Shown here: positions 1-14,160 of the stretch, one piece after another | Position numbering within the stretch: position 1 is the stretch's first letter | Layout: every line of letters begins with the position of its first letter | Virus record (IMG/VR): IMGVR_UViG_3300029986_000716 | Location: 1-29,416 of that record | DNA length: 29,416 nt | Reading direction: 5' to 3' (one strand) | Source: a virus | Translations under genes and position numbers: made by a program | Notes under the pieces: generated by a model | What the model saw: the letters and a program-made list of their open reading frames with translations, nothing else | Databases searched by the model: none | Told to the model about the DNA's origin: nothing

Positions 1-485
1 TTAATAGAGGAAATTTCATGAGGTATACCAGTTCCACCAGCAGCTAAAGATAGCAACTTACCTGACTGGCAACCACATGATTTTCTAGTTAAATCCTTTG
101 TTAGCCCATAAGCATCTAAGTATCTAATATTTCCACATACGCATTGGCAAACAAAAGTACCTATCTTAGCAGTTGGGTCAGTTTCATAAGTTGCTCTTCT
201 TAATACTTTAAAATAATTTACAGTTGTTCCAATTAAGTAATTATATTTACTAGAGTTTCTAAAAGAGACAATTCCTTTAGCACCATTAATTTTTCCTGAG
301 CATGATTTACACATAGTAATTTTATTATTAATTAATCCATAAAAAGCTGTGTTTTTTGTCACATTACCACAGTCACACAGGCAGTTAGCTACCATTCCTC
401 CATAAGTAGCCTTTTCTATACTTTGAATAGTTAAATTACCATACTTCATACCGATATATTTAGTGTAGTCTATCTTTTTTGGCAT
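1..485 (-). CDS. zinc-knuckle repeat protein, homing-endonuclease type (partial)
   Basis: The frame is open from the ATG at 485 to the left edge, about 161 residues, so the C-terminus is missing. The start has a GAGGAG ribosome site just upstream on the minus strand. It begins MPKKIDYTKYIGMKYGNLT and carries two Cys-rich modules of the type (F/Y)G-LTV...C-C-CG...SCGC: one with CLCDCGN and CKSCSG, the second with CQCVCGN and KSCGCQSG. Such repeats form the DNA-binding front part of many phage free-standing endonucleases, and the genes at 7488 and 8394 share them. No nuclease domain is visible in the part present, so the nuclease role is inferred. It diverges from the MoxR-type ATPase gene. Confidence 0.75.
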   Translation of the reverse strand, partial: MPKKIDYTKYIGMKYGNLTIQSIEKATYGGMVANCLCDCGNVTKNTAFYGLINNKITMCKSCSGKINGAKGIVSFRNSSKYNYLIGTTVNYFKVLRRATYETDPTAKIGTFVCQCVCGNIRYLDAYGLTKDLTRKSCGCQSGKLLSLAAGGTGIPHEISSI

Positions 486-600
486 ACAGTCTCCTCAATA
501 ACAGTATCGGAAAATGTCATAAAAACTTTAGTAAATTCATAGCGAGGGGCATCAAAGTGATATGCCCTCTAACCTCAAATCCTCCTAAAAGGAAAAACTA
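486..600. promoter_or_regulatory. divergent intergenic region with leader hairpin
   Basis: This 115-bp gap separates two diverging genes and must hold at least the start signals for both. It contains a short stem-loop, GGGCAT (547-552) with ATGCCC (562-567), just before the ribosome site CCTCCTAAAAGGA of the gene at 601. The hairpin has no U-rich tail, so it looks more like a leader or processing structure than a terminator. I cannot assign a -35/-10 pair with confidence. Confidence 0.35.
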
Positions 601-1887
601 ATGGCTCACAAAACTGAAACAATCAGTAAGGATTTCTTCTCCACCTCCACAAAGATGTCCATTGGGCAATTTGAGCAGTTTTTGAAGAACGTTGTATTGA
701 ATACAGACCCTAGGGATTTCGCTCCTATTATAGTTTGGGGAGCGCCGGGTTGCGCAAAGAGTGTAATTACTGAACTTACGTTTGCTTCTTGTGCCCGTAA
801 GCTTCGTACTGTTATTCTTTCTCAGATTGGCCCACTAGATACCAATGGTCTGCCAAATATTCAGAAGGATGAAGACAATCGTGATATTACTAGAATGTCT
901 CCAACTGATATGTTTGGTCGTGGTAAGCATCATCTTTTTCTTGATGAGCTTAATAACTGTGCTCCTTCTACACTGGCAGCAGTTCAGAACCTTCTATCTT
1001 CTAAGTCAATTGGTGGTGATGACTATAGTGATGTTCATATCATTGCTGCCTGTAATCCTCCAAGCACCAATAGTCTAGCAAATGATTTGAACTTTCCTAC
1101 AATTTCACGTTGTATTAACATTGTTATTGACTATTCACTAGATGATTTTATCAACTACGCAATGGCTACTGGTTCTATTCATCCTTCTATCACAGCATTC
1201 CATAAGAAAACTTCTGGCCGGTTTCTTCAGGCTAAGTGGAGCATCTATCCTGGCTCTGCTTATGAAGTTCCAGAACCAGGAGCTAATGAACCCTTTCCTT
1301 GCCCTCGTTCATGGACAATTGCTTCACAGTCCATTAATGCTCTATCAGGTGCCAAAGTAAATAATGTGGTAGACTATTCTCTTCTTAAGCCTCTAGTTGA
1401 AGGTTCTGTGGGAATTCAGGCAGCATCAGAGTTTGCTACTACTTATGCTTACATGAATCGTATTCCTGACATTGAGAAAATTTATGAGGGAACTTTAACT
1501 GCAAAGAAGGAAAAAATTGAGGATAACGTAGCAATTCAGTTTCTAACTATGATGAGCTGTATTAACCACTGTATTGCTCAGGTAAATAGTGCTGCTACTA
1601 AGGGAATTACAGTTCGAATTGATAATGAAAATTCTCCTGCTTTTAAACTTCTAGCTGGTATTCATTACTGTGTTCGTTTTATGGGAGATGCCACTTCAGC
1701 GGAACTTGCCACTATGACACTTCAAAGTGTAGCAAAGGCAATGAGAGAAAGTAAGCTCTCAACCGATTTTATGAATAAACTTCTCGGTGGAGTTTCAAAA
1801 GAAAAAGGTCTAACTCGCGAGGATATTATTCGTTACGCAAAAGATACTGCTGCAGGACAATCTGAAATTCAATCAAATATTGGCTAA
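601..1887 (+). CDS. MoxR-type AAA+ ATPase
   Basis: A 428-residue AAA+ ATPase. Walker A is GAPGCAKS (47-54), Walker B is LFLDEL (112-117), a sensor-1 Asn lies in AACNP (152), and a probable arginine finger lies in PTISR (170). MoxR ATPases act as chaperone-like remodelling enzymes and usually work with a VWA-domain protein; such a protein is encoded at 6047-7420, with array A between them. The start ATG follows a purine-rich AAAAGGA site. By eye the gene is richer in G+C and in CTT/GGT/CGT codons than the small genes that follow, which suggests a different expression level or history. The substrate is unknown. Family assignment is firm; the MoxR subtype rests partly on the VWA neighbour. Confidence 0.85.
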   Translation: MAHKTETISKDFFSTSTKMSIGQFEQFLKNVVLNTDPRDFAPIIVWGAPGCAKSVITELTFASCARKLRTVILSQIGPLDTNGLPNIQKDEDNRDITRMSPTDMFGRGKHHLFLDELNNCAPSTLAAVQNLLSSKSIGGDDYSDVHIIAACNPPSTNSLANDLNFPTISRCINIVIDYSLDDFINYAMATGSIHPSITAFHKKTSGRFLQAKWSIYPGSAYEVPEPGANEPFPCPRSWTIASQSINALSGAKVNNVVDYSLLKPLVEGSVGIQAASEFATTYAYMNRIPDIEKIYEGTLTAKKEKIEDNVAIQFLTMMSCINHCIAQVNSAATKGITVRIDNENSPAFKLLAGIHYCVRFMGDATSAELATMTLQSVAKAMRESKLSTDFMNKLLGGVSKEKGLTREDIIRYAKDTAAGQSEIQSNIG

Positions 1888-1908
1888 TAGTAATAGTTAG
1901 CTAAATAT

Positions 1909-1951
1909 AAAAATGGTATGAATAGCCTAAAAAACTATTCATACCATTTTT
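1909..1951. terminator. bidirectional Rho-independent terminator
   Basis: A perfect 17-bp inverted repeat (1909-1925 with 1935-1951, core ATGGTATGAATAG) with a 9-nt loop. It has A5 on the left and T5 on the right, so it can terminate in both directions. It lies between the convergent genes ending at 1887 (+) and 1966 (-), exactly where a shared terminator is expected. Confidence 0.9.
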
Positions 1952-1965
1952 CTTTATTTTAATTA

Positions 1966-2139
1966 TTATAGTTTCTTTGCGTCTTTTTCAACATCAGCTA
2001 CTACTGTTTTTACTTCTGCTACCACTGAACTTACTTTGGCGGTATCAGCAGCTACTATTTTTTCATTGTTCTTAAAAACAAGAGCACCAACAATAAAACC
2101 GGCCACGAAACTAATAATAAACCATACGAAATCTGACAT
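1966..2139 (-). CDS. small single-pass membrane protein
   Basis: A 57-residue minus-strand gene with a GGAGGTAAT ribosome site directly before its ATG at 2139. It opens MSDFVWFIISFVAGFIVGAL, giving one clear membrane segment at about residues 4-22, followed by a Lys/Glu/Val/Ala-rich tail that should form a helix outside the membrane. No signal-cleavage site is evident. It is the only complete minus-strand gene in the window and is convergent with the MoxR-type gene across a shared terminator. It resembles small phage inner-membrane or holin-accessory proteins in layout only; the function is unknown. Confidence 0.75.
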   Translation of the reverse strand: MSDFVWFIISFVAGFIVGALVFKNNEKIVAADTAKVSSVVAEVKTVVADVEKDAKKL

Positions 2140-2190
2140 ATTACCTCCTTATATTTACATACTTAATTCTATAAAAGAAATGAGGATTAA

Positions 2191-2409
2191 ATGAAAAGAT
2201 GTTATATTCTTCATATCCCTTCTGGAGAATATCTAAAAGACTGTGATGGAAATAATGATATTTACAAAAGTATTAAACAAGCAACTACACAGATTAAGTG
2301 TATATTAGCTTTGTCTAAACTAAATTACCTAGGCTGGAATGAACATAACAAACATATAGGAACAGTTGTAGCAATAAATGAATTTGAAATAATAAGACTG
2401 GAGGATTAG
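2191..2409 (+). CDS. ILHIPTG-family small protein A1
   Basis: First gene of array A, 72 residues, and a good type member of the family. Residues 4-14 read CYILHIPSGEY, a predicted strand-turn-strand; a helix follows at about 24-43; then GWNEHNKHIG, a W-N-x-x-N module seen also at 4460 and 5648; and finally NEFEIIRLED, a predicted closing strand. No Cys/His metal site, signal peptide or membrane segment is seen. The ribosome site is GAGG before the ATG. Its last codons (CTGGAGGAT) place GGAGG just ahead of the next ATG at 2412. The family is unrecognised and has no assigned function. Confidence 0.8.
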   Translation: MKRCYILHIPSGEYLKDCDGNNDIYKSIKQATTQIKCILALSKLNYLGWNEHNKHIGTVVAINEFEIIRLED

Positions 2410-2411
2410 CT

Positions 2412-2639
2412 ATGTATAAAATTCTACATATACCTACTGGAACTTATGTTATGGACTATTATAATAAACCTATAACTATTAGAAATATACCAGAAGATAA
2501 ATTTGATAAAGCTGATATTTTACGACAAGTTATCCTAACTACTTTACGATATACTACGTTTAATCATGAAATTAAAGAAAGTTCAGCAGGACTTGATAAT
2601 TTATTTTCTGAAGTTACCTTTGTAGAAATAAAGAAATAA
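2412..2639 (+). CDS. ILHIPTG-family small protein A2
   Basis: 75 residues starting MYKILHIPTGTYV, close to the family consensus. The middle contains a Lys/Asp-rich helix (KFDKADILRQVIL). The end is divergent: SEVTFVEIKK replaces the usual E-F-E-I-I, although the alternating hydrophobic strand is kept. It starts 2 nt after the previous stop and ends 1 nt before the next ATG, so all three genes should be cotranslated. Confidence 0.78.
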   Translation: MYKILHIPTGTYVMDYYNKPITIRNIPEDKFDKADILRQVILTTLRYTTFNHEIKESSAGLDNLFSEVTFVEIKK

Positions 2640-2640
2640 T

Positions 2641-2883
2641 ATGTATACTATTCTACATATAACAACTGGAGAATATGTATATAGTTATAGTGGTACATTT
2701 TATAGTGGAGAACTTAAAAATTCTCTATATAAAATCATTAAAGTAAACTCAATAGAAATGTGTAATGCTTGTATATTAACGATAGTAGAAATAGGAATAT
2801 ACATATCAAATTCAAAACCAGTTTTTCATAACTTATATCAAACCAATAAAAATGAATTTGAAATAATAAGAATAGGAGAATGA
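2641..2883 (+). CDS. ILHIPTG-family small protein A3
   Basis: 80 residues, beginning MYTILHITTGEYVYSYSGT and ending NEFEIIRIGE. Nearest relative in the window is the next gene (2885): both carry ITTGEY followed by a short aromatic stretch and a C-S/Y-S-G turn, which suggests a recent duplication followed by divergence. The ending AGAATAGGAGAATG supplies the ribosome site for the following ATG. Confidence 0.78.
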   Translation: MYTILHITTGEYVYSYSGTFYSGELKNSLYKIIKVNSIEMCNACILTIVEIGIYISNSKPVFHNLYQTNKNEFEIIRIGE

Positions 2884-2884
2884 T

Positions 2885-3133
2885 ATGTATTGTATTTTAC
2901 ATATAACCACTGGAGAATATATATATACTTTTTTAGGTATACTTTGTAGTGGACAACCAAATCATGAATTTTACTTGTATAAGACTAATTTAAGAAATAG
3001 TTGTATAGTCACTGTATGCGATATAGTTAGAAGAGGTATTGCTATGAAAAACTCTGGTAAATGGTTTATTTTTCAACAATGTGTAGAAAATGAATTTGAA
3101 ATAATAGAAATTGAGGATAAATATGATAGCTAA
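2885..3133 (+). CDS. ILHIPTG-family small protein A4
   Basis: 82 residues, MYCILHITTGEYIYTFLG at the front and NEFEIIEIEDKYDS at the end; the usual terminal strand is followed by an extra DKYDS. It is the sister of the gene at 2641. Its end overlaps the start of a 49-codon reading frame at 3123. Confidence 0.78.
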   Translation: MYCILHITTGEYIYTFLGILCSGQPNHEFYLYKTNLRNSCIVTVCDIVRRGIAMKNSGKWFIFQQCVENEFEIIEIEDKYDS

Positions 3134-3272
3134 TATACAATTTCCAAATTATATACCTAATTATGAAATAACTTTTTACAGAAAAGTAGAGCCAGTAAAT
3201 AAAAAAGAAGGTATAAAAGAATATATAACCAATAAAAACTATTTAGGAAATATAGTGGATATTTATGTATAG
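3123..3272 (+). CDS. short unassigned ORF in array A
   Basis: A 49-residue frame (MIANIQFPNYIPNYEITFYR at the start, GNIVDIYV at the end) fills the gap between two family genes. It overlaps the upstream gene by 11 nt and the ATG at 3265 by 8 nt, so it keeps the translational chain intact. GAGGAT lies about 6 nt before the ATG. It lacks both family motifs. It may be a genuine small gene or an eroded family copy; coding status is uncertain. Confidence 0.5.
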   Translation: MIANIQFPNYIPNYEITFYRKVEPVNKKEGIKEYITNKNYLGNIVDIYV

Positions 3273-3537
3273 AATATTATATATAGAAAGTGGAGATTAT
3301 ATTTATAGATATATTGGCACTCCTCACTGTGATTCAAAATTTTCTGTTTATGAAATAGTTGGTGATGGTGAGCAGAATCTATTTGTTCCTTGGGAATTTA
3401 AAACTATTGAAGAGGCAAAAATACTATTTGAAGCTACTGATACTATTAAGTATCCTTCATTTTCTATACTTGATATACTTCATAATGATATTTACTTAGA
3501 TGAAAATCCGTTATTATTTGATATAGTAGAGGTATAG
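3265..3537 (+). CDS. ILHIPTG-family small protein A5 (LFEIVEV subgroup)
   Basis: 90 residues, MYRILYIESGDYIYRYIGT to LFDIVEV. It founds the run of four LFEIVEV-type copies (3265, 3540, 3797, 4033). The middle has FKTIEEAKILFE, the helix that reappears in many copies as S/T-K-x-E-A. The final codons GTAGAGGTATAG place GAGG 8 nt before the next ATG at 3540. Confidence 0.8.
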   Translation: MYRILYIESGDYIYRYIGTPHCDSKFSVYEIVGDGEQNLFVPWEFKTIEEAKILFEATDTIKYPSFSILDILHNDIYLDENPLLFDIVEV

Positions 3538-3539
3538 CC

Positions 3540-3794
3540 ATGTATAGAATATTATTTATAGAAACTGGAGAATATTTATATTGCTTAAGTAATACCCCTT
3601 ATGCTAATTTGTATTACTCATATGAAGTTAATAATCCTCCTAAGAATATATGTTATAAGTTTAAAATATATGAAGTAGCTTCAAAAAAAGAAGCTATTGA
3701 TAAACTATCTGAAGTTTTAGAGATTGAACTAGCTAATAAAATTCTATTGACTATACCTGATAATAGATTATTATTTGAGATAGTGGAGGTATAG
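3540..3794 (+). CDS. ILHIPTG-family small protein A6 (LFEIVEV subgroup)
   Basis: 84 residues, MYRILFIETGEYLYCLSNT to LFEIVEV, with the helix ASKKEAIDKL. The first 45 or so nucleotides are identical to those of the next gene at 3797, and both share a SNTP block at different distances from the start, so one differs from the other by internal insertion or deletion. Ends GTGGAGGTATAG, which provides the ribosome site for 3797. Confidence 0.8.
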   Translation: MYRILFIETGEYLYCLSNTPYANLYYSYEVNNPPKNICYKFKIYEVASKKEAIDKLSEVLEIELANKILLTIPDNRLLFEIVEV

Positions 3795-3796
3795 CC

Positions 3797-4030
3797 ATGT
3801 ATAGAATATTATTTATAGAAACTGGAGAATATTTATATTGCCTATATACTGATGGATATTTATATTACTTAAGTAATACCCCTCATTCTAATTTGTATTC
3901 CTTATATGAAGTAGCTTCAAAAAAAGAAGCTATTGAGAAGCTAGATGAAAATATTATAATATATCCAACAGATATTAGTTATATAGTAATATCAGAAAAC
4001 AAGATATTATTTGAGGTAGTGGAGGTATAG
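3797..4030 (+). CDS. ILHIPTG-family small protein A7 (LFEIVEV subgroup)
   Basis: 77 residues. Its front half matches the gene at 3540 and its back half (YPTDISYIVISENKILFEVVEV, here split by reading as YPTDISYIVI then SENKILFE) matches the gene at 4033, so it is a mosaic between its two neighbours. Contains ASKKEAIEKL. Ends with GTGGAGGTA before the next ATG. Confidence 0.8.
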   Translation: MYRILFIETGEYLYCLYTDGYLYYLSNTPHSNLYSLYEVASKKEAIEKLDENIIIYPTDISYIVISENKILFEVVEV

Positions 4031-4032
4031 CT

Positions 4033-4266
4033 ATGTATAGAATATTATTTATAGAACCTGGGGAATATTTGTACTGTTTCTTTCCTGAGGGAAATTTATA
4101 TTGTTCTAATGAAATTACTAATACATCTTCATATCATATATATGAAGTAGATTCAAAAAAAGAAGCTATTGAGAAACTAAATGAACGTATTATACTATAT
4201 CCAACAGATGCTAGTTATATAGTAATACCAGAAAACAAGATATTATTTGAGATAGTGGAGGTATGA
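4033..4266 (+). CDS. ILHIPTG-family small protein A8 (LFEIVEV subgroup)
   Basis: 77 residues, MYRILFIEPGEYLYCFFPEG to LFEIVEV. The T of the family TG turn is Pro here (EPGEY). The helix is DSKKEAIEKL. Its last third is nearly the same as in the preceding gene, with only a few changes. Stop TGA is 3 nt before the ATG at 4270. Confidence 0.8.
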   Translation: MYRILFIEPGEYLYCFFPEGNLYCSNEITNTSSYHIYEVDSKKEAIEKLNERIILYPTDASYIVIPENKILFEIVEV

Positions 4267-4269
4267 GAG

Positions 4270-4473
4270 ATGTATAAAATTTTACATATACCTACTGGGA
4301 CTTATCTACTATATTATGATACACCATGGGAGTTTTTATCTGATTTTTCAGCTAAACAAGTAATAGATAATTTAGAAGACTACTTTGGAACAAGTTTAAT
4401 AGATTGGAATCCGCAAATAAATTGGAGTAATTTTATAATTAATGAATTTGAAGTTATTTATGATAAGGTATAA
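4270..4473 (+). CDS. ILHIPTG-family small protein A9
   Basis: 67 residues, one of the shortest intact copies: MYKILHIPTGTYLLYYDTP at the front, NEFEVIYDKV at the end. The middle is short and contains a helix (SAKQVIDNLEDYF). It overlaps the next gene by 14 nt; the codons of its terminal EFEVIYD span the likely start of 4460. Confidence 0.78.
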   Translation: MYKILHIPTGTYLLYYDTPWEFLSDFSAKQVIDNLEDYFGTSLIDWNPQINWSNFIINEFEVIYDKV

Positions 4474-4687
4474 AATCTTACATATACCTACTGGACATTA
4501 TTTAAAAAACTATAAAAATAGTGATATTCTTTTAAACTCAAAAAAAGAAGCTCAAATAATGATAGATAATAACTTAGAGTGGCATGCTATAAATTCTACA
4601 TATTCTTTTTGTTGGAATGAGTATAATGCTGATATTGGAGAAGGAATTTCTAAAGAAGAGTTTGAAATAATAAAACTAGGAGAATAA
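4460..4687 (+). CDS. ILHIPTG-family small protein A10
   Basis: 75 residues from the ATG at 4460 (MIRYKILHIPTGHYLKNY). An in-frame ATG at 4442 exists but adds residues derived from the previous gene's tail, so the later start is preferred. It has the NSKKEAQIMI helix, CWNEYNADIG and EEFEIIKLGE, so both middle modules of the family occur in one protein. The stop is directly followed by the next ATG. Confidence 0.76.
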   Translation: MIRYKILHIPTGHYLKNYKNSDILLNSKKEAQIMIDNNLEWHAINSTYSFCWNEYNADIGEGISKEEFEIIKLGE

Positions 4688-4960
4688 ATGAAGAAAGAAA
4701 AATTAGTTTGGAATATATTGAGATTAACCTCATCAGAATATATGCGTATTTATAATTATAATATTGAAGTATATACTCAAAATTTTAAAAGTAAGTCAGA
4801 GGCTTATTGGGTTTTAATAAATGCTATTAATGACTACAATGAAGATTTGGATTATTATATTAGAACAGAACACAAGAGGTGTGAACAATTTTCTAACTAT
4901 AAACCAGTATCCTATATTGAATTTGAACTAATAAAAACAAACCCCATACAGGAGAAATAA
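4688..4960 (+). CDS. ILHIPTG-family small protein A11 (divergent)
   Basis: 90 residues. The first strand is changed to VWNILRLTSSEYMRIY and the last to YIEFELIKTNPIQEK, but position and spacing of both strands, and the FKSKSEAYWVL helix between them, fit the family. It is richer in Tyr and charged residues than its neighbours. The CAGGAGAAATAA at its end supplies the ribosome site for 4962. Confidence 0.68.
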   Translation: MKKEKLVWNILRLTSSEYMRIYNYNIEVYTQNFKSKSEAYWVLINAINDYNEDLDYYIRTEHKRCEQFSNYKPVSYIEFELIKTNPIQEK

Positions 4961-4961
4961 A

Positions 4962-5204
4962 ATGACAACATATAAATGTAATAATTGTGGAGAATATTGG
5001 CAACAAGGTCCTACAAGAGATATTAAATATGATAAACCTTGTGCTAAATGTCTAACAAACACATTAGAAACTATACGAAAAGACCCGAAATTGTGGAAAT
5101 CTGGTGGTAAAGGAGGAGCAGATATGTATTTGGGATTACCACCAGCAATGAGAGAAATAGATGAAATTTTAAATCCATATATTAAATATAAAACAGAGGA
5201 ATAG
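4962..5204 (+). CDS. small zinc-finger protein
   Basis: 80 residues with a four-Cys metal site near the N-terminus: CNNC (6-9) and CAKC (about 27-30), a zinc-ribbon spacing. A Gly/Lys-rich stretch (WKSGGKGGADMYLG) and an acidic helix follow. It lacks the family strands, so it is an unrelated gene inside array A. The metal site suggests nucleic-acid or protein binding; no family is recognised. Confidence 0.65.
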   Translation: MTTYKCNNCGEYWQQGPTRDIKYDKPCAKCLTNTLETIRKDPKLWKSGGKGGADMYLGLPPAMREIDEILNPYIKYKTEE

Positions 5205-5207
5205 GAA

Positions 5208-5366
5208 ATGACACCACAAGAAATGAAAGCTATGGTAAAATTAATAGATTCATGTCTAGCAATGAATAACCAAATACAAGCATTAAAAACAGATATACAA
5301 GATTTACATATAAAAATACAAGCATTAGAGCATTATATATTAAGAAGTCTTCCTCCTAATAGCTAA
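5208..5366 (+). CDS. small coiled-coil protein
   Basis: A 52-residue frame beginning MTPQEMKAMVKLIDSC with an ATAGGAAATG start region, 3 nt after the previous stop. Residues about 20-45 (NNQIQALKTDIQDLHIKIQA) have regular hydrophobic spacing typical of a short coiled coil. It ends SLPPNS. Probably a real gene given its snug fit; function unknown. Confidence 0.6.
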   Translation: MTPQEMKAMVKLIDSCLAMNNQIQALKTDIQDLHIKIQALEHYILRSLPPNS

Positions 5367-5378
5367 AGGAAAAATCAA

Positions 5379-5435
5379 ATGCTAGAACTACTTCAAAGAC
5401 TATTTATTGGTCATAGTCATATTTGGAAGTTCTAA
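5379..5435 (+). CDS. 18-residue mini-ORF, possible gene remnant
   Basis: MLELLQRLFIGHSHIWKF, preceded by AAAGGAAAAATCAA, a good ribosome site. It ends 4 nt before the ATG at 5440. It may be a leader peptide that keeps ribosomes moving along the array, or the surviving front of a deleted gene. Too short to judge. Confidence 0.3.
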   Translation: MLELLQRLFIGHSHIWKF

Positions 5436-5439
5436 ATAT

Positions 5440-5655
5440 ATGTACATTATTTTACACATACCATCAGAGCAATATGTGTATTCTGGTAAAAATAGAAAAG
5501 CTACTTTTAATACTGAATTAGCTTGCCAAGAATGGATTAAGTCAATAGTATATACTTATTCACAATCTCCCTGCTGGATATATGAAAATGTAGATATTGG
5601 ACAAGTCACTAATGAGAACGAATTTGAAATTATAAGGATAGAAGATAATGTATAA
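5440..5655 (+). CDS. ILHIPTG-family small protein A12
   Basis: 71 residues from the ATG at 5440 (MYIILHIPSEQYVYSGKN); a further upstream non-ATG start would add residues outside the family alignment. The turn is SEQ instead of TGE. It carries the FNTELACQEWIKS helix, CWIYENVDIG and NEFEIIRIEDNV. It overlaps the next ATG at 5648 by 8 nt. Confidence 0.76.
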   Translation: MYIILHIPSEQYVYSGKNRKATFNTELACQEWIKSIVYTYSQSPCWIYENVDIGQVTNENEFEIIRIEDNV

Positions 5656-5866
5656 AATATTATGCATAACTTCTGGACAATATATGAGAAGTTTTTCAGG
5701 AACAGACCTAGTTTATATTTCTTATGATGATGCTATGGAGTCTATTAAGAACGATATTAACTGGGTTACAAAGCGTGGAGGTACGTGGAATGATTATAAT
5801 AAAGATATATCTTATGAAGTAACTTTGGAGGAGTTTGAAATAGAGGAAATTAATGAAAAGCTATAA
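5648..5866 (+). CDS. ILHIPTG-family small protein A13
   Basis: 72 residues, MYKILCITSGQYMRSFSGT to EEFEIEEINEKL. The middle has ISYDDAMESIKND and TWNDYNKDI, the W-N-x-Y-N module. It overlaps the preceding gene by 8 nt and the following one by 14 nt. The GAGGAAATTA within its closing codons is the ribosome site for 5853. Confidence 0.78.
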   Translation: MYKILCITSGQYMRSFSGTDLVYISYDDAMESIKNDINWVTKRGGTWNDYNKDISYEVTLEEFEIEEINEKL

Positions 5867-6023
5867 AATTTTAGATGTAATTTCTGGAGAATATATAACA
5901 TTTTATGCTGGAAATTTATATTTTGAACTTTCTTCAATAGAAAACGCTAATTTTTGGATTACTAAACTATGTAAGCGTAGAAATAGAAGTAAAAATAATT
6001 TTGAAATTATAGAAATAGATTAA
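5853..6023 (+). CDS. ILHIPTG-family small protein A14 (minimal copy)
   Basis: 56 residues, the shortest intact copy in the window: MKSYKILDVISGEYITFYAG at the front and NNFEIIEID at the end, with a single helix (SSIENANFWITKLCKR) between. It shows the core of the family: strand-turn-strand, helix, strand. It is the last copy of array A, 23 nt before the VWA gene. Confidence 0.72.
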   Translation: MKSYKILDVISGEYITFYAGNLYFELSSIENANFWITKLCKRRNRSKNNFEIIEID

Positions 6024-6046
6024 CTCTAGCCTTTTATGGAGAAAAA

Positions 6047-7420
6047 ATGGCAGCTAAAACATCACCAACAGATTTAAAGGCATACTACCAGAGTCTTTTA
6101 GACGACTGGGATAATATAAATGTTCCAAACATTAATCTAGCCAGTCTAAGACAATTCATAATAAAACAGATTCCCTTCTATTCACAGGCTTTACAACAAA
6201 TTAATATAGAAATTAATAATAGTGATAAAGCAAAAGAATTCCCAAGTTTTGCGTTTACTGATAGCTTTAAAATTTATATTTCTACTAAACTATATACTAT
6301 TCATGAAATGTTGGCAGCTAAACAAAACAAGCCATGGTTTAAAACTCCAGAACTAGGTATCTCTTTTACTATCTTACATGAGATAGGTCATATTGTTTTT
6401 GATAGTTTTGGCAGAGCTCAACATAGAGATATGAAGCTTTGGAATGTAGCTACAGATGCTCAAATTAATCAGTTTGTGGCAAGAATAATGAAAGAAAGTG
6501 GTATTTTTAAGTCAGATGCTAATTATACAAGTTTTATGGGAGTTCTTGAAAAACAATTTGTATTTGACCCAGCTAAATATGCCAAACTTTCAGCTGAAGG
6601 TACCTATGATGACATGTATAAAGTAGGTATGAGAGGAAAGGACTATGAAGGTTGGACTCTAAATGGTGATATGGTAGGTGATGGAAGTTCTGGAAAAGAC
6701 GAGAATGGAAAACCTTTATCTCCAGAAGAACAAATGGCCAGAGATATTATTAAATCAGAATTAAAAGATTATACTTCTAAAAACTCAAATAAGCTTCCTG
6801 GGTCTGGCAGTGAGTATGGAAGAGATTTTGAGATGCTTCTTGAGCCTCCAAAAGTAAATCTAAGGCAGATTTTAAAGCACATTACTGACAGAGAAAATTC
6901 AGAAGACTATGGATATTCAAGAAGAGGTTCTCGAATGGACCATATGATGCCAAAAAATATAAGACTTCCTTCTATGGTTGATATTGCCCCAGACTTAATC
7001 AGAAAATTTATGGTTGTTCTCGATTGCTCTGGAAGTATGTCAAGTGAGCAATTAAATGATGCTCTAAATATTATTAGAGAAATTACTTGTAAATACACCA
7101 GAAATCCAGTATATCTTATTCTACACACTTCTGAAATTTGCTTTTCAGGTGATATTAAGACATATCAAGAAGTTCCCAAAAACATATCGGGTGGTACGGC
7201 TTTTGCTCCCGTTCTATGTGAGATTTCTAGACTTAAAAAAGAAGAAAACACTGTACCAAGCATAATTTTATGGACAACGGATCTCCTCGGTGAATTGGGA
7301 CCTGAGGACTATAATGTTAAAAATTTTCCCTTCTATAAAAAGCTGCATTGGATTATTTCAGGATCAGATTTAGAATGTCCAATTGGCCATAATCATTGGA
7401 TAGATGAAATTGGAGATTAG
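6047..7420 (+). CDS. metallopeptidase-like/VWA domain protein, MoxR partner
   Basis: 457 residues; ribosome site GGAG before the ATG. The N-terminal part has a zincin-type HEIGH (111-115), with NVATDAQIN (133-141) downstream as the likely third-ligand region. The C-terminal part is a von Willebrand A fold with a complete MIDAS: D326-C-S328-G-S330, T384 in GGTAF, and D412 in WTTDLLG. This order (putative metallopeptidase, then VWA-like) is that of the DUF2201-type proteins that accompany MoxR AAA+ ATPases. The likely partner is the ATPase at 601. The stretch between the domains, about 200-260, is Gly/Asp/Ser-rich and probably flexible. Whether it cleaves peptides is not known for the family; the metal-binding residues are intact. 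Confidence 0.85.
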   Translation: MAAKTSPTDLKAYYQSLLDDWDNINVPNINLASLRQFIIKQIPFYSQALQQINIEINNSDKAKEFPSFAFTDSFKIYISTKLYTIHEMLAAKQNKPWFKTPELGISFTILHEIGHIVFDSFGRAQHRDMKLWNVATDAQINQFVARIMKESGIFKSDANYTSFMGVLEKQFVFDPAKYAKLSAEGTYDDMYKVGMRGKDYEGWTLNGDMVGDGSSGKDENGKPLSPEEQMARDIIKSELKDYTSKNSNKLPGSGSEYGRDFEMLLEPPKVNLRQILKHITDRENSEDYGYSRRGSRMDHMMPKNIRLPSMVDIAPDLIRKFMVVLDCSGSMSSEQLNDALNIIREITCKYTRNPVYLILHTSEICFSGDIKTYQEVPKNISGGTAFAPVLCEISRLKKEENTVPSIILWTTDLLGELGPEDYNVKNFPFYKKLHWIISGSDLECPIGHNHWIDEIGD

Positions 7421-7462
7421 TCTTAGATAATGAAATAAATTTACTTTTTAAGTAATCATATT

Positions 7463-7529
7463 AGTCAGTAAGCCGATAATTAAAGGTATGAAAAAAGATA
7501 TATTAAATCAAACTTTCGGCTTACTGACT
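7463..7529 (+). promoter_or_regulatory. inverted repeat bracketing the endonuclease start
   Basis: AGTCAGTAAGCCGA (7463-7476) and TCGGCTTACTGACT (7516-7529) are perfect 14-nt inverted copies. The 39-nt loop holds the TAAAGGT ribosome site and the ATG at 7488; the right arm encodes FGLLT of the protein. A transcript reaching this point could fold the start site into a closed loop, a known way to restrict phage homing-endonuclease expression. A weaker palindrome (TTACTT-ttt-AAGTAA, 7441-7455) lies just upstream. Confidence 0.5.
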
Positions 7530-8375
7530 GTTATAGAGAAGTTGGGCTCTATTGATTATAAACAACATTGGCAATGTAGATGTATTTGTGGAAAGTTGGT
7601 TGACAAAACAACAGAATCATTAACTTGTCCTAGGAATAAAAAACACTGTGGGTGTTGTGATAGAAATCAGTTTAAATCAGGACAAAAATTTGGAAAATTA
7701 ACTATAACAAAGGAGTCAGTAAAGTTTGGATCTTCTGGAAAAAGAATAAAATCATGGGAGTGTAGCTGTGAATGTGGAAATATCACTATAGTAAATACTT
7801 CTGATTTACTAAGTGGAAATACTACTAGCTGTGGGTGTACCAGACAAAATTATAAAGTTGATTTAACTGGCAAAGTATATGGTAGACTCACAGTAATAGC
7901 TTTAGATATTGAAAAATCACTTAATAAAAAAGACAAATATTGGAAATGTCAATGTGTTTGTGGTAATACTTGTAGTCCTTCTACAAATGCTCTTTTAAGT
8001 GGACTTAATCAATCTTGTGGCTGTATTAAACAGGATTTATTTAAAGCTTATAGAATATCTAAGGGATATGATCCTGAGACTTTAATGACTCCACACAAAA
8101 TTGCTTTAAGAGGCAGGATGAGTGGTAAGAAACCCTCGATAATGTTAAAATATAATAGTAAATGCCAACTATGCCAAGAAGAATACACAAGTCAGGAATT
8201 AGATGTACACCATATAGTTCCCTTAAGTAAAAACGATAAACTTTTTAAACAAGAAAATAATTTAATTATTTTATGTAAGAAATGTCATCTTATAGCACAT
8301 AATAATAATTGGCAAAAAATAGATTTATATATTCAAAAGAAGTTAGCTGCAATAACTGGTCTTATTCTAACTTAA
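7488..8375 (+). CDS. HNH homing endonuclease with zinc-knuckle repeats
   Basis: 295 residues. Three DNA-binding type repeats of pattern FG-LTV...W-C-C-CG...CGC lie at about 10-56, 68-117 and 131-179. The C-terminal nuclease has C226-x-x-C229, LDVHHIVPLS with H241/H242, N258, C263-x-x-C266 and H271, a complete HNH site with a structural zinc. It would nick or cut DNA at a specific site, probably to spread its own gene. It sits between the VWA gene and a second endonuclease, with an inverted repeat around its start. No frame damage is seen. Confidence 0.85.
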   Translation: MKKDILNQTFGLLTVIEKLGSIDYKQHWQCRCICGKLVDKTTESLTCPRNKKHCGCCDRNQFKSGQKFGKLTITKESVKFGSSGKRIKSWECSCECGNITIVNTSDLLSGNTTSCGCTRQNYKVDLTGKVYGRLTVIALDIEKSLNKKDKYWKCQCVCGNTCSPSTNALLSGLNQSCGCIKQDLFKAYRISKGYDPETLMTPHKIALRGRMSGKKPSIMLKYNSKCQLCQEEYTSQELDVHHIVPLSKNDKLFKQENNLIILCKKCHLIAHNNNWQKIDLYIQKKLAAITGLILT

Positions 8376-8393
8376 GATGGGAGGTATAAAAGT

Positions 8394-9461
8394 ATTCCAA
8401 ATAAGTATAATTTTTTAACTTTACCTATAAAAAATTTAAAAGTTATCTCTGATGAAGGTTTGAATAAGGCAAGAAGGGGTCTTTGGAAATGTCAATGTAT
8501 CTGTGGAACTATTTTTGTAAAAACCTCATCTTTTTTAATAACACATAAAGATAGTTATACCTGCCACTGTGTAAAGGATTTGATAGGTAAGACATTTGGC
8601 CTATTAACAGTTATAGAAAAAGCAGAAACAGTAGATGGAAAACCTAAATATAAATGTAGATGTAAGTGTGGCAATACTAAGATAATATACTCTGCTAATT
8701 TACTATCAAACTCTACTACTTCTTGTGGATGTAAAATCCCTAATAAAAATATAGATTTGATAGGAAAAGTGTTTGGAAAGCTTACTGTAAGAAGTTTTGT
8801 AGCCACTGAATCTAAGAAAGCAAAGCACTGGTTATGTGAATGTTCTTGTGGAAAAACTATTATTGCTACTTCTTCTCAATTACACAATAAAAAAATTCCT
8901 AAGACTCACTGTGGATGTTCTGGACATAATAAAATAAACAATACTTTATTAGGAAATATATTTGGTGAATTAACTGTTATTTCACAAGTAAAATCTAATA
9001 GAGGTAAAAAAGCTTGGGAATGTTTATGCTCTTGTGGAAATAGAATTATATCAGAAACCTCAGTTCTACTTTCTGGTGAAAAAACTAATTGCCCTAAATG
9101 TTCTTGTGGAAAAACTGAAGCCTTATGTATAAATACCATTAAGAGATTAACTGGATTAGAGTTTACAAAAACTAGAAAATATTTTTCTAGGTATAATTAT
9201 ATAGAATTTGATGGGCTCAATGAAGCTTCTAACATAGCAATAGAGTATAATGGAGAACAACATTATATTTTTCCTAATTTTTGGCATAAAACAAAAGAAG
9301 ATTTTATAAAACAATATAATAGAGATGTTAAAAAACAAAACTACTGTAGAGAAAATAATATAAAACTAATAATTATCCCATATACAGAACAAAATAATTT
9401 AGAAGCTTTTATTAAGTTGGAATTTAGCAGATTAAATTTAAATAACTTATTTCTAGTATAG
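8394..9461 (+). CDS. zinc-knuckle repeat endonuclease with Vsr-like C-terminal domain
   Basis: No ATG opens this frame, yet coding character extends upstream of the TTG at 8460 to the stop at 8373. A strong GGGAGG (8379-8384) lies 9 nt before ATT at 8394, so I place the start there, giving 355 residues. Four Cys-rich repeats (CQCICG, CRCKCGN, CECSCGK, CLCSCGN) are followed by a nuclease-like domain with EFDGLN, AIEYNGEQHY, NRDVKK and LIIIPYTE, the acidic/Gln/His pattern of Vsr- or PD-(D/E)xK-like phage endonucleases. The C-terminal domain closely resembles that at 26018. Use of ATT is unusual; the gene could instead be a start-codon mutant. Confidence 0.72.
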   Translation: MPNKYNFLTLPIKNLKVISDEGLNKARRGLWKCQCICGTIFVKTSSFLITHKDSYTCHCVKDLIGKTFGLLTVIEKAETVDGKPKYKCRCKCGNTKIIYSANLLSNSTTSCGCKIPNKNIDLIGKVFGKLTVRSFVATESKKAKHWLCECSCGKTIIATSSQLHNKKIPKTHCGCSGHNKINNTLLGNIFGELTVISQVKSNRGKKAWECLCSCGNRIISETSVLLSGEKTNCPKCSCGKTEALCINTIKRLTGLEFTKTRKYFSRYNYIEFDGLNEASNIAIEYNGEQHYIFPNFWHKTKEDFIKQYNRDVKKQNYCRENNIKLIIIPYTEQNNLEAFIKLEFSRLNLNNLFLV

Positions 9462-9482
9462 TTTATTAGGTTTAATAATTTT

Positions 9483-9520
9483 GGGAGAGGGGATTTAATG
9501 TCCCTTCTCCCATTTTCTTT
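9483..9520 (+). terminator. stem-loop with T-rich tail ahead of array B
   Basis: GGGAGAGGGGA (9483-9493) pairs with TCCCTTCTCCC (9501-9511) with one G-T pair and a 7-nt loop, followed by ATTTTCTTT. It should end transcripts from the endonuclease genes. The ribosome site of the first array B gene begins only 14 nt beyond the stem. Confidence 0.8.
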
Positions 9521-9534
9521 GATTGGAGGAGTTT

Positions 9535-9747
9535 ATGAGAACTGGTAAACTTTTATATATTCCAGAAGGAAAATACCTTACATATAGAGGAATTACTACT
9601 ATTTCTATGGTTTGTATTAATATTATATTAACTGAACTTACTTCAAATAAAGATATTGAAAAATATTCTTGTCTTGTAAAGAGTTTAGGATTACCTATTA
9701 GAAGTAGTTTTTTATATTCGGAATTTGAGGTAATTGAGGATGACTAA
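9535..9747 (+). CDS. ILHIPTG-family small protein B1
   Basis: 70 residues from ATG 9535, which has GGAGGAG just upstream; the in-frame TTG at 9523 lies in that ribosome site and is rejected. Starts MRTGKLLYIPEGKYLTYRG and ends YSEFEVIEDD. The middle is Ile/Leu-rich (ISMVCINIILTELT) but with no membrane topology I would trust. It overlaps the next gene by 8 nt (ATGACTAA). Confidence 0.78.
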   Translation: MRTGKLLYIPEGKYLTYRGITTISMVCINIILTELTSNKDIEKYSCLVKSLGLPIRSSFLYSEFEVIEDD

Positions 9748-9958
9748 AATACTACATATACCTAGTGGGGAATATGTTAAATTTGTTTCGAGAGACCAAC
9801 ATAAGTTGGTTCTTAATATAGAAGATTCACGGTTTTCTGATATATCTTTAGATGCATTATTTCTTAAATTAGAAGATACTTATTTTAATTTAAATATAAA
9901 GGGCTATGATGATTCCCAAGCTAGAATTAAAGCGGAATTTGAGGTAATAGATGGCTAG
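9740..9958 (+). CDS. ILHIPTG-family small protein B2
   Basis: 72 residues, MTKILHIPSGEYVKFVSRD to AEFEVIDG. Starting with this copy, array B uses an MTK/MTR start created by the ATGACTAA overlap. It carries LNIEDSRFSD in the middle, a relaxed form of the F-E-D-S-Y motif of later copies. Overlaps the next ATG through ATGGCTAG. Confidence 0.8.
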   Translation: MTKILHIPSGEYVKFVSRDQHKLVLNIEDSRFSDISLDALFLKLEDTYFNLNIKGYDDSQARIKAEFEVIDG

Positions 9959-10163
9959 GATACTTTATATACCTACTGGAGAATATTTAAAATTTTATTA
10001 CGCTAATGATAACATTTATTCTTTTGTAGAATTATGGGAAGTTGATTCTGAAATCACTTATTTATTGGCACTTAATTCAAGTATGTTTATTAATAGTTGG
10101 CTAAAATTAAATAATGTCATTCTACTAATTTTACTAAGTGAATTGGAGATAATATATGACTAA
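9951..10163 (+). CDS. ILHIPTG-family small protein B3
   Basis: 70 residues, MARILYIPTGEYLKFYYAN to SELEIIYD. The last 40 or so nucleotides, through the next start, are identical to those of the duplicated genes at 10370 and 10587, while the middle differs. This makes it a donor or recipient of a C-terminal segment. The GGAGATAAT in its last codons serves as the next ribosome site. Confidence 0.8.
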   Translation: MARILYIPTGEYLKFYYANDNIYSFVELWEVDSEITYLLALNSSMFINSWLKLNNVILLILLSELEIIYD

Positions 10164-10377
10164 AATATTAGATGTAATTAAAGGAGAATATGTTCAATTT
10201 GTTCCACGTAAAGATGAGGGTAGGCCAGAACTAGTAGAGGATAGTTTTAGATATAACGTATTAAATTATGATATAGAAGCTCTTATAGAATATCTATTAG
10301 AAGACAATGGGGATAATATATTATATCCATATCAAAATTCTTATACAAGACAAAGTTTCGAGATAATATATGACTAA
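10156..10377 (+). CDS. ILHIPTG-family small protein B4
   Basis: 73 residues, MTKILDVIKGEYVQFVPRKD to QSFEIIYD. The first strand reads ILDVIKGEY rather than ILHIPTGEY; the gene at 10804 has the related ILDLVNGQY. The middle is acidic (YDIEALIEYLLEDNGD). It ends with the ATATATGACTAA junction. Confidence 0.8.
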   Translation: MTKILDVIKGEYVQFVPRKDEGRPELVEDSFRYNVLNYDIEALIEYLLEDNGDNILYPYQNSYTRQSFEIIYD

Positions 10378-10594
10378 AATACTTTATATACCTACTGGGG
10401 AATATTTACAGTATTGGGAATTTAAAGAAAGTAAATATACCTCCATTATAGAAGATATAGAACTAGAAGTTGAAGAGGAACTAGTGGAGCTAACAAATAT
10501 TGGCAGGGGAGATTATCTTATAAATGACTGGTTAGAACATAATAAGATTATTCTACCAATTTTACTAAGTGAATTGGAGATAATATATGACTAA
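10370..10594 (+). CDS. ILHIPTG-family small protein B5 (duplicate copy 1)
   Basis: 74 residues, MTKILYIPTGEYLQYWEF to SELEIIYD, with a strongly acidic middle (ELEVEEELVEL) and INDWLEHNKIILPILL before the last strand. The protein is identical to the next gene's. The W-L-x-x-N-x-I-I-L-P block is shared with copies at 9951 and 11298. Confidence 0.85.
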   Translation: MTKILYIPTGEYLQYWEFKESKYTSIIEDIELEVEEELVELTNIGRGDYLINDWLEHNKIILPILLSELEIIYD

Positions 10595-10811
10595 AATACT
10601 TTATATACCTACTGGGGAATATTTACAGTATTGGGAATTTAAAGAAAGTAAATATACCTCCATTATAGAAGATATAGAACTAGAAGTTGAAGAGGAACTA
10701 GTGGAGCTAACAAATATTGGCAGGGGAGATTATCTTATAAATGACTGGTTAGAACATAATAAGATTATTCTACCAATTTTACTAAGTGAATTGGAGATAA
10801 TATATGACTAA
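10587..10811 (+). CDS. ILHIPTG-family small protein B6 (duplicate copy 2)
   Basis: Second, identical copy of the gene at 10370, overlapping it by 8 nt. Because DNA and protein are both unchanged, it doubles dosage rather than adding a new sequence. It might also be gained or lost readily in a growing phage population. Confidence 0.85.
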   Translation: MTKILYIPTGEYLQYWEFKESKYTSIIEDIELEVEEELVELTNIGRGDYLINDWLEHNKIILPILLSELEIIYD

Positions 10812-11046
10812 AATATTAGATTTAGTAAATGGACAATATGTTAAATTTATCTCCTCTCATAAATATGAAATGGAACATTTAGACGATAAAACATATCAAG
10901 TAATTGATTTTGAAGATAGTTATAGTTATGAAATAGGTTCTTCTGTAAGACAACACATAGATTATATGTTAGAGGATAATATGTGTGATGCACAATCTCG
11001 ATATAAGGGATATACATTAGAGAATTTCGAGGTAATATATGACTAA
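10804..11046 (+). CDS. ILHIPTG-family small protein B7 (FEDSY subgroup)
   Basis: 80 residues, MTKILDLVNGQYVKFISSHK to ENFEVIYD. The middle has IDFEDSYSYE, defining a subgroup with 11039, 11530 and 14673 in which F/Y-E-D-S-Y follows a short charged loop. The next start lies in its closing ATATATGACTAA. Confidence 0.8.
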   Translation: MTKILDLVNGQYVKFISSHKYEMEHLDDKTYQVIDFEDSYSYEIGSSVRQHIDYMLEDNMCDAQSRYKGYTLENFEVIYD

Positions 11047-11305
11047 GCTACTACATATTACTTCTGGACAATATGTTTATTTTCTATCTTCACTAGAGTA
11101 TGATAGAAAAAACCATAAGCACCTTAGTTTAAGTACACACGTGCTAGATTATGAAGATTCTTATATGTATGAAGATGAGCATATACCCATAGAAGAAATT
11201 TTGGAAAAAAGAGGTTCTAAGGGAGGATGCTATTTAACTTCATATAAGATTTCAGATTTTAAAACATTTCTAAAATCTGAATTTGCTATAATTAAAAATG
11301 ACTAG
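11039..11305 (+). CDS. ILHIPTG-family small protein B8 (FEDSY subgroup)
   Basis: 88 residues, MTKLLHITSGQYVYFLSSLE, then LDYEDSYMYE, ending SEFAIIKND. The first ~60 nt are identical to the gene at 11530, after which the two diverge sharply. The final E-F-E has become E-F-A. Overlaps 11298 by 8 nt. Confidence 0.8.
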   Translation: MTKLLHITSGQYVYFLSSLEYDRKNHKHLSLSTHVLDYEDSYMYEDEHIPIEEILEKRGSKGGCYLTSYKISDFKTFLKSEFAIIKND

Positions 11306-11537
11306 GATACTTTACATACCTACCGGAGAATATTTAAAATATTATACTCATTTGGATGAAAATGAAATTATAATAGAGAGTGTATTGGAGGAAATAATGA
11401 GAAAGGAAGATATTGAAATAGAGATAGAAGAAATACTATCAATGGAACAACATAAAACTAGATATAGTGATTGGATAAAATTAAATAATTTAATACTTCC
11501 AGTTTTACCAAATGAATTGGAGATAATATATGACTAA
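11298..11537 (+). CDS. ILHIPTG-family small protein B9
   Basis: 79 residues, MTRILYIPTGEYLKYYTHLD to NELEIIYD. A Glu/Ile-rich helical middle (EEIMRKEDIEIEIEEILSME) and a DWIKLNNLILPVLP block tie it to the duplicated pair at 10370/10587. Ends in the standard overlap with the next gene. Confidence 0.8.
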   Translation: MTRILYIPTGEYLKYYTHLDENEIIIESVLEEIMRKEDIEIEIEEILSMEQHKTRYSDWIKLNNLILPVLPNELEIIYD

Positions 11538-11781
11538 GCTACTACATATTACTTCTGGACAATATGTTTATTTTCTATCTTCGGTAGAGTATGATAGGGC
11601 CCATTCAGAAGATACTTCAGGAAGACTTGTAAATTTTGAAGATTCTTATTATTTTAAGCATGGTCATGAAACAATAGGTAATTTTATTACTAAATATCTT
11701 ACAGAAGGCGTTGAACTAGAAGTAGGAAATGGTAATGTCATTTTATATTCATTAGATGAATTAGAAATAGTATATGACTAA
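11530..11781 (+). CDS. ILHIPTG-family small protein B10 (FEDSY subgroup)
   Basis: 83 residues, MTKLLHITSGQYVYFLSSVE, VNFEDSYYFK, ending LDELEIVYD. It shares its N-terminal segment with 11039 and its EYDRAHSED block with the copy at 14673 in array C, so it links two arrays. Overlaps the next ATG by 8 nt. Confidence 0.8.
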   Translation: MTKLLHITSGQYVYFLSSVEYDRAHSEDTSGRLVNFEDSYYFKHGHETIGNFITKYLTEGVELEVGNGNVILYSLDELEIVYD

Positions 11782-12064
11782 ATCTAGCTATATACCTAGT
11801 ATAAAAAGAGAATTAAAAATATTATACATTCCAAATGGTGAGTATATAGTCCCTAATTTTCCTTTTACACATTTTGGTTTAAGTCATTGGCATGTTATTG
11901 CCTATAGAAAAAAAGTAATTAATAAGTTTGTAAAATTATGTTCTGAATTGTCTACTTGGGGAAGACCTCCAGAATGGTTTGGGGACTTGCCTAGAAATCA
12001 TACCTTTGATATAAGTGAATTTGAGTTTATTTTTATAGTTGAGGGGATAGAAATAAATGACTAG
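11774..12064 (+). CDS. ILHIPTG-family small protein B11 (N-terminally extended)
   Basis: 96 residues. The family strand appears late, as KILYIPNGEYIV at about 15-26, after MTKSSYIPSIKREL. The extension may be a leftover of an earlier start, because SSYIPS resembles a damaged copy of the same strand. The middle is Trp/Pro-rich, and the protein ends SEFEFIFIVEGIEIND with a longer tail than usual. Confidence 0.75.
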   Translation: MTKSSYIPSIKRELKILYIPNGEYIVPNFPFTHFGLSHWHVIAYRKKVINKFVKLCSELSTWGRPPEWFGDLPRNHTFDISEFEFIFIVEGIEIND

Positions 12065-12287
12065 AATACTTTATATACCTACTGGAGAATATATACAGTT
12101 TATATCGCCTGAGGTTGGATATACGGAAATTTTTGAAGAATCTACTGATAACTTATTTAAGTTTACGAGTAATACTCCAGAAAGATATATAAGCAAAATT
12201 ATAGAACATAATTATTCATCTTTTTTAGTTCGTAAAGTAGGTTATATAAAGCATATTAGATCAGAATTCGAGATAATATATGACTAA
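12057..12287 (+). CDS. ILHIPTG-family small protein B12
   Basis: 76 residues, MTRILYIPTGEYIQFISPE to RSEFEIIYD. The KHIRSEFEIIYD end resembles that of the copies at 14450 and 14890 (KFLRSEFEIIYD). Overlaps both neighbours by 8 nt. Confidence 0.8.
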   Translation: MTRILYIPTGEYIQFISPEVGYTEIFEESTDNLFKFTSNTPERYISKIIEHNYSSFLVRKVGYIKHIRSEFEIIYD

Positions 12288-12522
12288 ACTGCTATATATT
12301 CCAAACGGTAATTATTTAAGGTTTTATTTACATAATTCAAATGACCTCACAATAAACTTAGAAGAAGCTGGAATCGGGGCAGGGCCAGATTTTAAAACGG
12401 CAGCTCATTTTATAAATTATTTACTACATACTAAATGTGGCTCAAGGTGGTATGAAATAAATGGAATTGAGTATGGCCACGAATTTCTTCGTTGTGAACT
12501 TGAGATAGTAAAATATGACTAA
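12280..12522 (+). CDS. ILHIPTG-family small protein B13
   Basis: 80 residues, MTKLLYIPNGNYLRFYLHN to RCELEIVKYD. The middle is Gly/Ala-rich (EEAGIGAGPDFKTAAHFINY). It shares FLRCELEI with the FLRSEFEI of array C copies. Its final KYD codons overlap the start of the split copy at 12515. Confidence 0.78.
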   Translation: MTKLLYIPNGNYLRFYLHNSNDLTINLEEAGIGAGPDFKTAAHFINYLLHTKCGSRWYEINGIEYGHEFLRCELEIVKYD

Positions 12523-12622
12523 GATATTATATATAACAGAAGGATATATCATACAACTAATAAAATTCCCAGCTATAGTAGGGGAATATACAGAAATATA
12601 TGAAGATAGTGCGTGGCTATGA
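12515..12622 (+). pseudogene. ILHIPTG-family copy B14, N-terminal half
   Basis: 35 codons: MTKILYITEGYIIQLIKFPA, ending EDSAWL before TGA at 12620-12622. It has the family front but no closing strand. The next frame begins at 12619 and supplies the missing back half (RAEFEILIC). Together they would make a normal ~84-residue copy, so a frameshift has split the gene. The stop and next start overlap as ATGA, so both halves could still be made by coupled translation. Confidence 0.65.
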
Positions 12623-12768: not shown

Positions 12769-12835
12769 TAAATAAAATTATTAAGGTTGAGTCTACTTCT
12801 GACGATACTAGTTAAATATAAAGGAGAAACCATTT

Positions 12836-13285: not shown

Positions 13286-13321
13286 CCTAACCAATAGCAA
13301 AACTAATAGGAGCATGCTATT

Positions 13322-14140: not shown

Positions 14141-14160
14141 TAGTCTACAAACTAACTAAG

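Follow-up and report, generated by a model that had tools for sequence, protein, structure and literature searches.

A phage MoxR/VWA gene pair probably separated as one case of a wider expansion of a small-protein family at core-gene junctions

The window analyzed here is an entire IMG/VR record (IMGVR_UViG_3300029986_000716; 29,416 bases, GC content 24-37%, no tRNA gene) and belongs to a large, uncultured tailed phage; coordinates refer to it unless another genome is named. Its plus strand carries a gene for a MoxR-type AAA+ ATPase (601-1887) and a gene for a DUF2201 metallopeptidase-VWA protein (6047-7420), and the 4,159 nt between them are largely given over to tandem copies of an uncharacterized small-protein family. 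With a probability of roughly 0.7, this splitting of the pair is one case of a genome-wide expansion of the family at junctions between core genes and not the mark of a functional tie to MoxR and VWA. The proposed MoxR/VWA link would then be mostly incidental, and the pattern that replaces it is that of a single family of about 50 copies, carried by two phage species at matching junctions between core genes, with amino-acid change far in excess of that of the core.

Four genomes cover the MoxR|VWA junction, namely the window (species G000), its species-level relative G001 (IMGVR_UViG_3300031251_000400) and the distant relatives G008 and G009. The order in G009 (213 kb) is MoxR-VWA-p149-p272-p176-HU-Zn ribbon-p188-HTH (helix-turn-helix)-UvsW-DnaB, with no array among these genes and with two family singletons elsewhere in the stretches examined, and G008 has the same core order as far as its fragment extends. 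This order is also found in the window and in G001, joined there by an AAA open reading frame (ORF), a ClpP-like protease and a phosphoesterase. Orthologs of MoxR and VWA are present in every relative spanning the region, and the gap between them is 975 nt (G008) or 1,023 nt (G009) long in the distant relatives, against 2,460 nt for G001 and 4,159 nt for the window. It holds three unrelated ORFans in G008 and a degraded GIY-YIG ORF in G009. The original prediction offered two readings, the first being that the array was inserted into a former operon. The insertion is supported by the array-free core order and the spacing of about 1 kb in G008 and G009; the former operon is less sure, since about 1 kb and other genes separate the pair even there, and since MoxR ends at a terminator in the window and in G001.

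The arrays occupy identical junctions in the window and in G001, and MoxR|VWA is merely one of six. Counts by the family hidden Markov model (HMM), given for the window and then for G001, are 13 and 8 at J1 (MoxR|VWA), 13 and 10 at J2 (VWA|p149; 9523-12522), 4 and 6 at J3 (p272|AAA/p176; 14212-15111), 6 and 7 at J4 (HTH|phosphoesterase; 19282-21260, which also includes a divergent member at 20689-21012), 8 and 6 at J5 (phosphoesterase|UvsW; 21929-24114), and at least 4 and 14 at J6 (after DnaB; 27857-29365), all of the window arrays lying on the plus strand. The J6 array of the near-identical strain G007 has 8 family genes. Because the six junctions are common to both species, the arrays were probably in place before the species split. 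Of 53 cross-species best hits, 35 connect copies at the matching junction (8.7 expected; no more than 22 in any of 2,000 shuffles), which indicates that array evolution is mostly local, with a measure of exchange between junctions. Within array A, the family array at J1 of the window, four copies (3265-4266) are closest to J5 or J6 members, which argues against an array A specific to MoxR and VWA.

By the family HMM, the window has 48 copies and G001 has 51, and other contigs of these two species contain more; with two divergent members (4688 and 20689) the window total is 50, or 43% of its bases. The members are 56-145 amino acids long and combine an N-terminal [K/R]ILxIPxGxYL motif and a C-terminal EFEII strand with a variable middle, L7 and G12 being the only nearly invariant positions among 79 members. 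For array A, the HMM was trained without any window copy from that array, and reversed sequences served as decoys. Thirteen array A ORFs were recovered at E ≤ 1.4e-7 and a fourteenth (4688-4960) at 9.3e-5, the decoys remaining at E ≥ 1.3. The count of 14 copies given in the original prediction is therefore correct, as are its positions for MoxR and VWA and its listing of a terminator, a convergent membrane-protein gene and other small genes in the gap. Ten family genes form the first part of the array (2191-4687; starts at 2191, 2412, 2641, 2885, 3265, 3540, 3797, 4033, 4270 and 4442), followed by the divergent copy of 90 amino acids, which has a G001 homolog at 8255-8506, and, further on, by a second part with three genes (5407-6023; starts at 5407/5440, 5648 and 5853). 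The VWA gene begins 23 nt behind the last of these.

The organization of transcription bears on how the pair came to be split. A stringent scan for hairpins followed by T runs, which required at least 11 Watson-Crick pairs and used shuffled sequence as its control, returned four plus-strand hairpins across the window, against 0.5 per shuffle. Each of them stands between a conserved gene and the array that follows it: one behind MoxR (1907-1953), one ahead of J2 (9482-9512), one behind p272 (14158-14193) and one behind HTH (19231-19262). Three of the four hairpins in positions 1-20000 of G001 are placed likewise (6086-6118, 9913-9948 and 18361-18389). Predicted folding energies range from -17 to -24 kcal/mol, with z scores of -5 to -7 in six of these seven and of -2.6 for G001 18361-18389, and slightly weaker hairpins stand behind DnaB in both species (27687-27713 in the window, upstream of J6). 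The hairpin after MoxR (-19.8 kcal/mol, z -7.3) is T-rich on both strands, so that it resembles a bidirectional intrinsic terminator, and its conserved counterpart in G001 (6086-6118) shows compensatory changes in two pairs, one from U-A to C-G and one from A-U to G-C. On account of this conservation and these paired changes, MoxR and array A look like separate transcription units; MoxR would be terminated before array A, and array A would lead into VWA.

The family is also set apart by its tempo of change. Between the window species and G001, reciprocal best hits of the family have a median identity of 38%, compared with 61.5% for 13 core genes (Mann-Whitney p = 2e-6). At a finer scale, three near-identical strain contigs, which match the window at 99.8-99.95% identity and start at its position 10.4 kb or 19.2 kb, provide 20 unique single-nucleotide polymorphisms (SNPs). 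Family genes account for 45% of the sequence compared and for 17 of these SNPs (P = 2e-4 to 7e-4). All 17 are nonsynonymous, where a synonymous share of 20-29% would be expected (P = 0.003-0.03, depending on the assumed transition/transversion bias), and the codon at 23136 reads K, Q or E in different strains. Diversifying selection on genes that act in conflict with the host would fit this pattern, by analogy with other such genes. In one strain (G006), a nonsense change at 22013 interrupts the family gene at 21929, so that at least one copy seems dispensable, and an in-frame gap of 6 bases is found at 19359-19364.

The preferred reading joins these elements as follows. In the ancestry of G000 and G001, a single small-protein family would have expanded and settled at six or more junctions between core genes, and the pair would be split because the gap behind the MoxR terminator is one of them. 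The arrays may have grown where they lie, through tandem duplication, with some copies passing between junctions, and each may be transcribed as the 5' portion of the core unit that follows it, array A thus ahead of VWA and separately from MoxR. By analogy, the products may act in conflict with the host, through counteraction of defense or host takeover, and such a role would explain both the copy number and the diversifying change. Several points weigh against this account. The MoxR|VWA junction is covered by just two array-bearing species and two array-free relatives, and the host-conflict role is argued from analogy. The SNPs, just 20 in number, cluster in J5 and were read from metagenomic assemblies, so that a signal resembling selection could also have arisen from common history or from some local process; the strain-level contigs begin at about 10.4 kb, beyond array A. 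Finally, the distance from hairpin to first array gene is 19-25 nt at J3 and J4 of the window and at J1, J2 and J4 of G001 (25 nt after MoxR in the latter), which leaves no room for a sigma-70-type promoter and would require either a promoter overlapping the hairpin or transcriptional read-through.

A more specific and tentative proposal holds that the family is a diversifying repertoire directed against varying host defenses, that its members are mostly the first genes past the terminators of core units, and that MoxR|VWA is one of its seats. If the family does form such a counter-defense repertoire, about 100 sequences are ready for testing. It is also possible, if rather doubtful, that placement is regulatory, the arrays being leaders of core units and the hairpins attenuators, whereby the family would be made whenever the unit is read and the output of the core genes would be tuned. 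The short spacing between hairpin and array is in keeping with such a design, as is the tight run of the arrays into the next core gene, with J3 overlapping AAA373 by 8 nt; against it, promoter-like sites were no commoner in a promoter scan than in shuffled sequence, and a strong hairpin is missing at some junctions (J5). This arrangement is compatible with the preferred explanation as to the origin of the arrays.

The arrays could instead be near-neutral or selfish tandem duplications that are tolerated at the ends of transcription units and have no common function. An exact 217-bp tandem duplication (two identical family genes, 10357-10790) and the nonsense change in G006 are what such a process would leave, and ends marked by terminators are the insertion sites of least polar damage. 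This is nevertheless unlikely, as in either species most copies have kept an intact ORF despite about 40% amino-acid divergence of the core genes, the array junctions are conserved, and the lack of synonymous changes among the 17 family SNPs differs from the prediction of relaxed neutrality. Least probable is the second reading of the original prediction, in which MoxR/VWA would use the products of array A as adaptors or substrates, and the array would sit in the operon because the proteins work together: the array does lie between both genes in both array-bearing species, directly ahead of VWA, and 8 of its 13 copies are most similar to G001 copies of the same junction, but the family also fills five further junctions, with genes for a helicase, HU and a ClpP-like protein among their neighbors, four array A copies are nearest to members at two of these junctions, the conserved terminator would insulate MoxR, and the pair occurs without the family at this junction in G008, G009 and the cultured lineages examined.

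Judged by sequence, the two genes are themselves a known and ordinary phage chaperone/co-chaperone pair of the N4 gp24/gp25 type. The 428-residue product of 601-1887 matches PF07728 (AAA_5; E = 6.9e-8, 33 bits against a cut-off of 22) and phrog_1297 (ATPase; E = 2.6e-45), and with its AAA_5 domain and intact Walker A (GAPGCAKS) and Walker B (LFLDEL, in LFLDELNN) motifs it is classed as a MoxR-type AAA+ protein; identity to its orthologs is 79% in G001, 50% in G008 and 49% in G009. The VWA protein (457 residues) matches PF13203 (28.4 bits, cut-off 23.2), PF09967 (27.4 bits, cut-off 26.4) and phrog_1314 (E = 2.9e-38). It has a HEIGH metallopeptidase motif at residues 111-115 and a metal-ion-dependent adhesion site (MIDAS) composed of DxSxS at 326-330 (DCSGSMS), T384 and D412, and both motifs are invariant across four orthologs. 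Identity of the pair to cultured relatives is about 23-30%. Relatives of phrog_1297 and phrog_1314 in one genome define the N4 gp24/gp25-type pair, and the window has both; immediate adjacency, which is common and not defining, is absent. A pair of this kind occurs in group 2.2 jumbo phages, where virion assembly and peptide processing were proposed (PMC7824862), and by extension of that proposal the present pair probably remodels or processes the virion or other phage complexes. No structural-gene neighbors were recognized around the window pair. As a separate observation, phrog_1314 is labeled "HNH endonuclease", and the identical label is attached to DUF2201 metallopeptidase-VWA proteins in RefSeq phage records (EcP1 F362_gp34, GAP32_211, CBB gp217, phage G gp576 and phiA41 gp41); on DUF2201 proteins it looks like a propagated annotation error.

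Comparison with 12 other phage lineages, in which the identities of the two proteins were checked by HMM except for the MoxR of navn, which is taken from annotation, shows how variable their spacing is. The genes are adjacent in seven (Slickus, S-TIM61, Vibrio 1.238, GAP32, CBB, EcP1 and Pantoea G19). In the remaining five they are split by an HNH gene (G7C, gp24.1), by two ORFs (phiA41), by one 1.5-kb ORF (Vibrio 2.275) or by three ORFs and a homing endonuclease (PA5oct), or lie on opposite strands (navn), in each case without the family. The premise that the genes normally sit side by side thus holds for seven lineages and fails for five. Since unrelated genes split the pair in G7C, phiA41, Vibrio 2.275 and PA5oct, the gap is insertion-prone in phages generally, and because it has been broken so repeatedly, adjacency should not be required for recognizing the MoxR/VWA chaperone pair. 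The gene-order comparison that had been suggested thus gave mixed spacing and one-sided co-occurrence; neither a constant wide separation regardless of the family nor a lack of co-occurrence of family and pair emerged cleanly. Scans of the viral contig collection for VWA and MoxR returned only G001, G008, G009 and a distant match, G021, in which no VWA match was found, and a scan of the genome contig collection found no MoxR relative.

Among known systems, the closest are the pairs of group 2.2 jumbo phages (PMC7824862) and N4 gp24/gp25 of the Schitoviridae, which are nearby same-strand pairs of the same two PHROGs; the window differs in that 4.2 kb and 14 unrelated small genes separate the two, and that a terminator follows MoxR. 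RavA-ViaA of E. coli likewise combines a MoxR ATPase with a VWA partner, a likeness drawn without sequence comparison. ViaA is not fused to a DUF2201-type metallopeptidase. The invasion of the MoxR|VWA gap by unrelated DNA is shared with G7C gp24.1, PA5oct and the GIY-YIG remnant of G009, in which mobile nuclease genes take the place held in the window by a tandem small-protein array. As for the expansion itself, literature searches on tandem expansions of small phage proteins turned up only the zinc-ribbon family of Bacillus phage G, with about 35 copies (PMC7824862), likewise a lineage-specific enlargement of a single such family within a large phage. The present family is a different one, with no nearly invariant Cys and none of the conserved CxxC pairs of the phage G zinc ribbons, and is set in tandem arrays at core-gene junctions.

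No known family accounts for the small proteins: among the 79 members no Pfam domain recurs (two members at best) and no PHROG is common to two. AlphaFold2 models of two members (mean predicted local distance difference test scores of 86 and 82) suggest a small beta-sheet, formed by an N-terminal hairpin and a C-terminal strand, with one to three helices. A PDB search with the models gave no significant match; comparison with the anti-CRISPR 8g9s_A (AcrIIC5) gave VIA Z scores of 4.3 and 2.7 and no Foldseek match with E under 1. In BFVD, the predicted viral structures that come closest are small uncharacterized proteins, several of them from T4-like phages (template modeling score about 0.6, probability 0.98), which resemble the family in size and predicted fold, as in Q6U957 of Aeromonas phage 44RR2.8t, but with Foldseek E values of just 0.006-0.3 and no sequence match. 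No expansion of these small proteins of T4-like phages is known to us. An origin from GIY-YIG nucleases was considered on account of a common YKI...TG hairpin (one G004 nuclease starts VYKILHIPTGKYYIG) and was rejected, as hhalign covers 13 N-terminal columns only and the catalytic Tyr, Arg and Glu are not conserved; the single PF20815 match has E = 0.068. Searches for further members added little. With a second family pattern, the viral contig collection yielded, beyond known records, tailspike-like ORFs only; three contigs of the genome contig collection match the family motif by exact pattern and none passes the family HMM; one tblastn query of the cultured-phage collection gave no convincing member, and the HMM found none across 14 cultured-phage MoxR/VWA loci. 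In G008, a single family gene (41013-41519; L035 1013-1519) lies directly upstream of a GIY-YIG nuclease gene.

Within the arrays, 17 neighboring pairs of family genes overlap by exactly 8 nt, as at 10156-12287 (ATGACTAA in arrays B and C). The codes for the conserved C-terminus and N-terminus thus form one continuous block between variable middles, plausibly a site of recombination. The G003 and G007 contigs, both from near-identical strains, begin inside the first 217-bp copy, which is where an assembly interrupted by the repeat would be expected to start. The first 8 nt of the AAA ATPase gene (15104-16225) overlap the last J3 array gene, and in G001 only the C-terminal 128 residues of its product are left behind the array (15024-15410), as if array recombination had removed the ATPase portion.

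Other genes share the gaps with the arrays. Between the MoxR hairpin and array A, a membrane protein of 57 residues is encoded on the minus strand, convergent to MoxR (1966-2139; phrog_3879, E = 8.4e-6), and was not found at the corresponding place in G001. Three small ORFs outside the family accompany array A: one at 3111-3272, one for a Cys-rich protein of 80 residues with a CxxC...CxxC pattern (4962-5204, plus strand), and one for a predicted coil protein of 52 residues (5208-5366, plus strand). The N-terminus of the Cys-rich protein is conserved in a G001 fusion (7893-8255), and its zinc-ribbon matches are sub-threshold only. HNH genes and related ORFs with Cys-rich repeats are located at 7488-9461 (J2) and in the UvsW|DnaB gap (25606-26296), where G001 has a GIY-YIG gene instead (G001 stretches 23102-23797 and 25258-25509). 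The HNH gene at 7488 has its start codon within an inverted repeat (7458-7534) whose 14-bp core, AGTCAGTAAGCCGA, is perfect.

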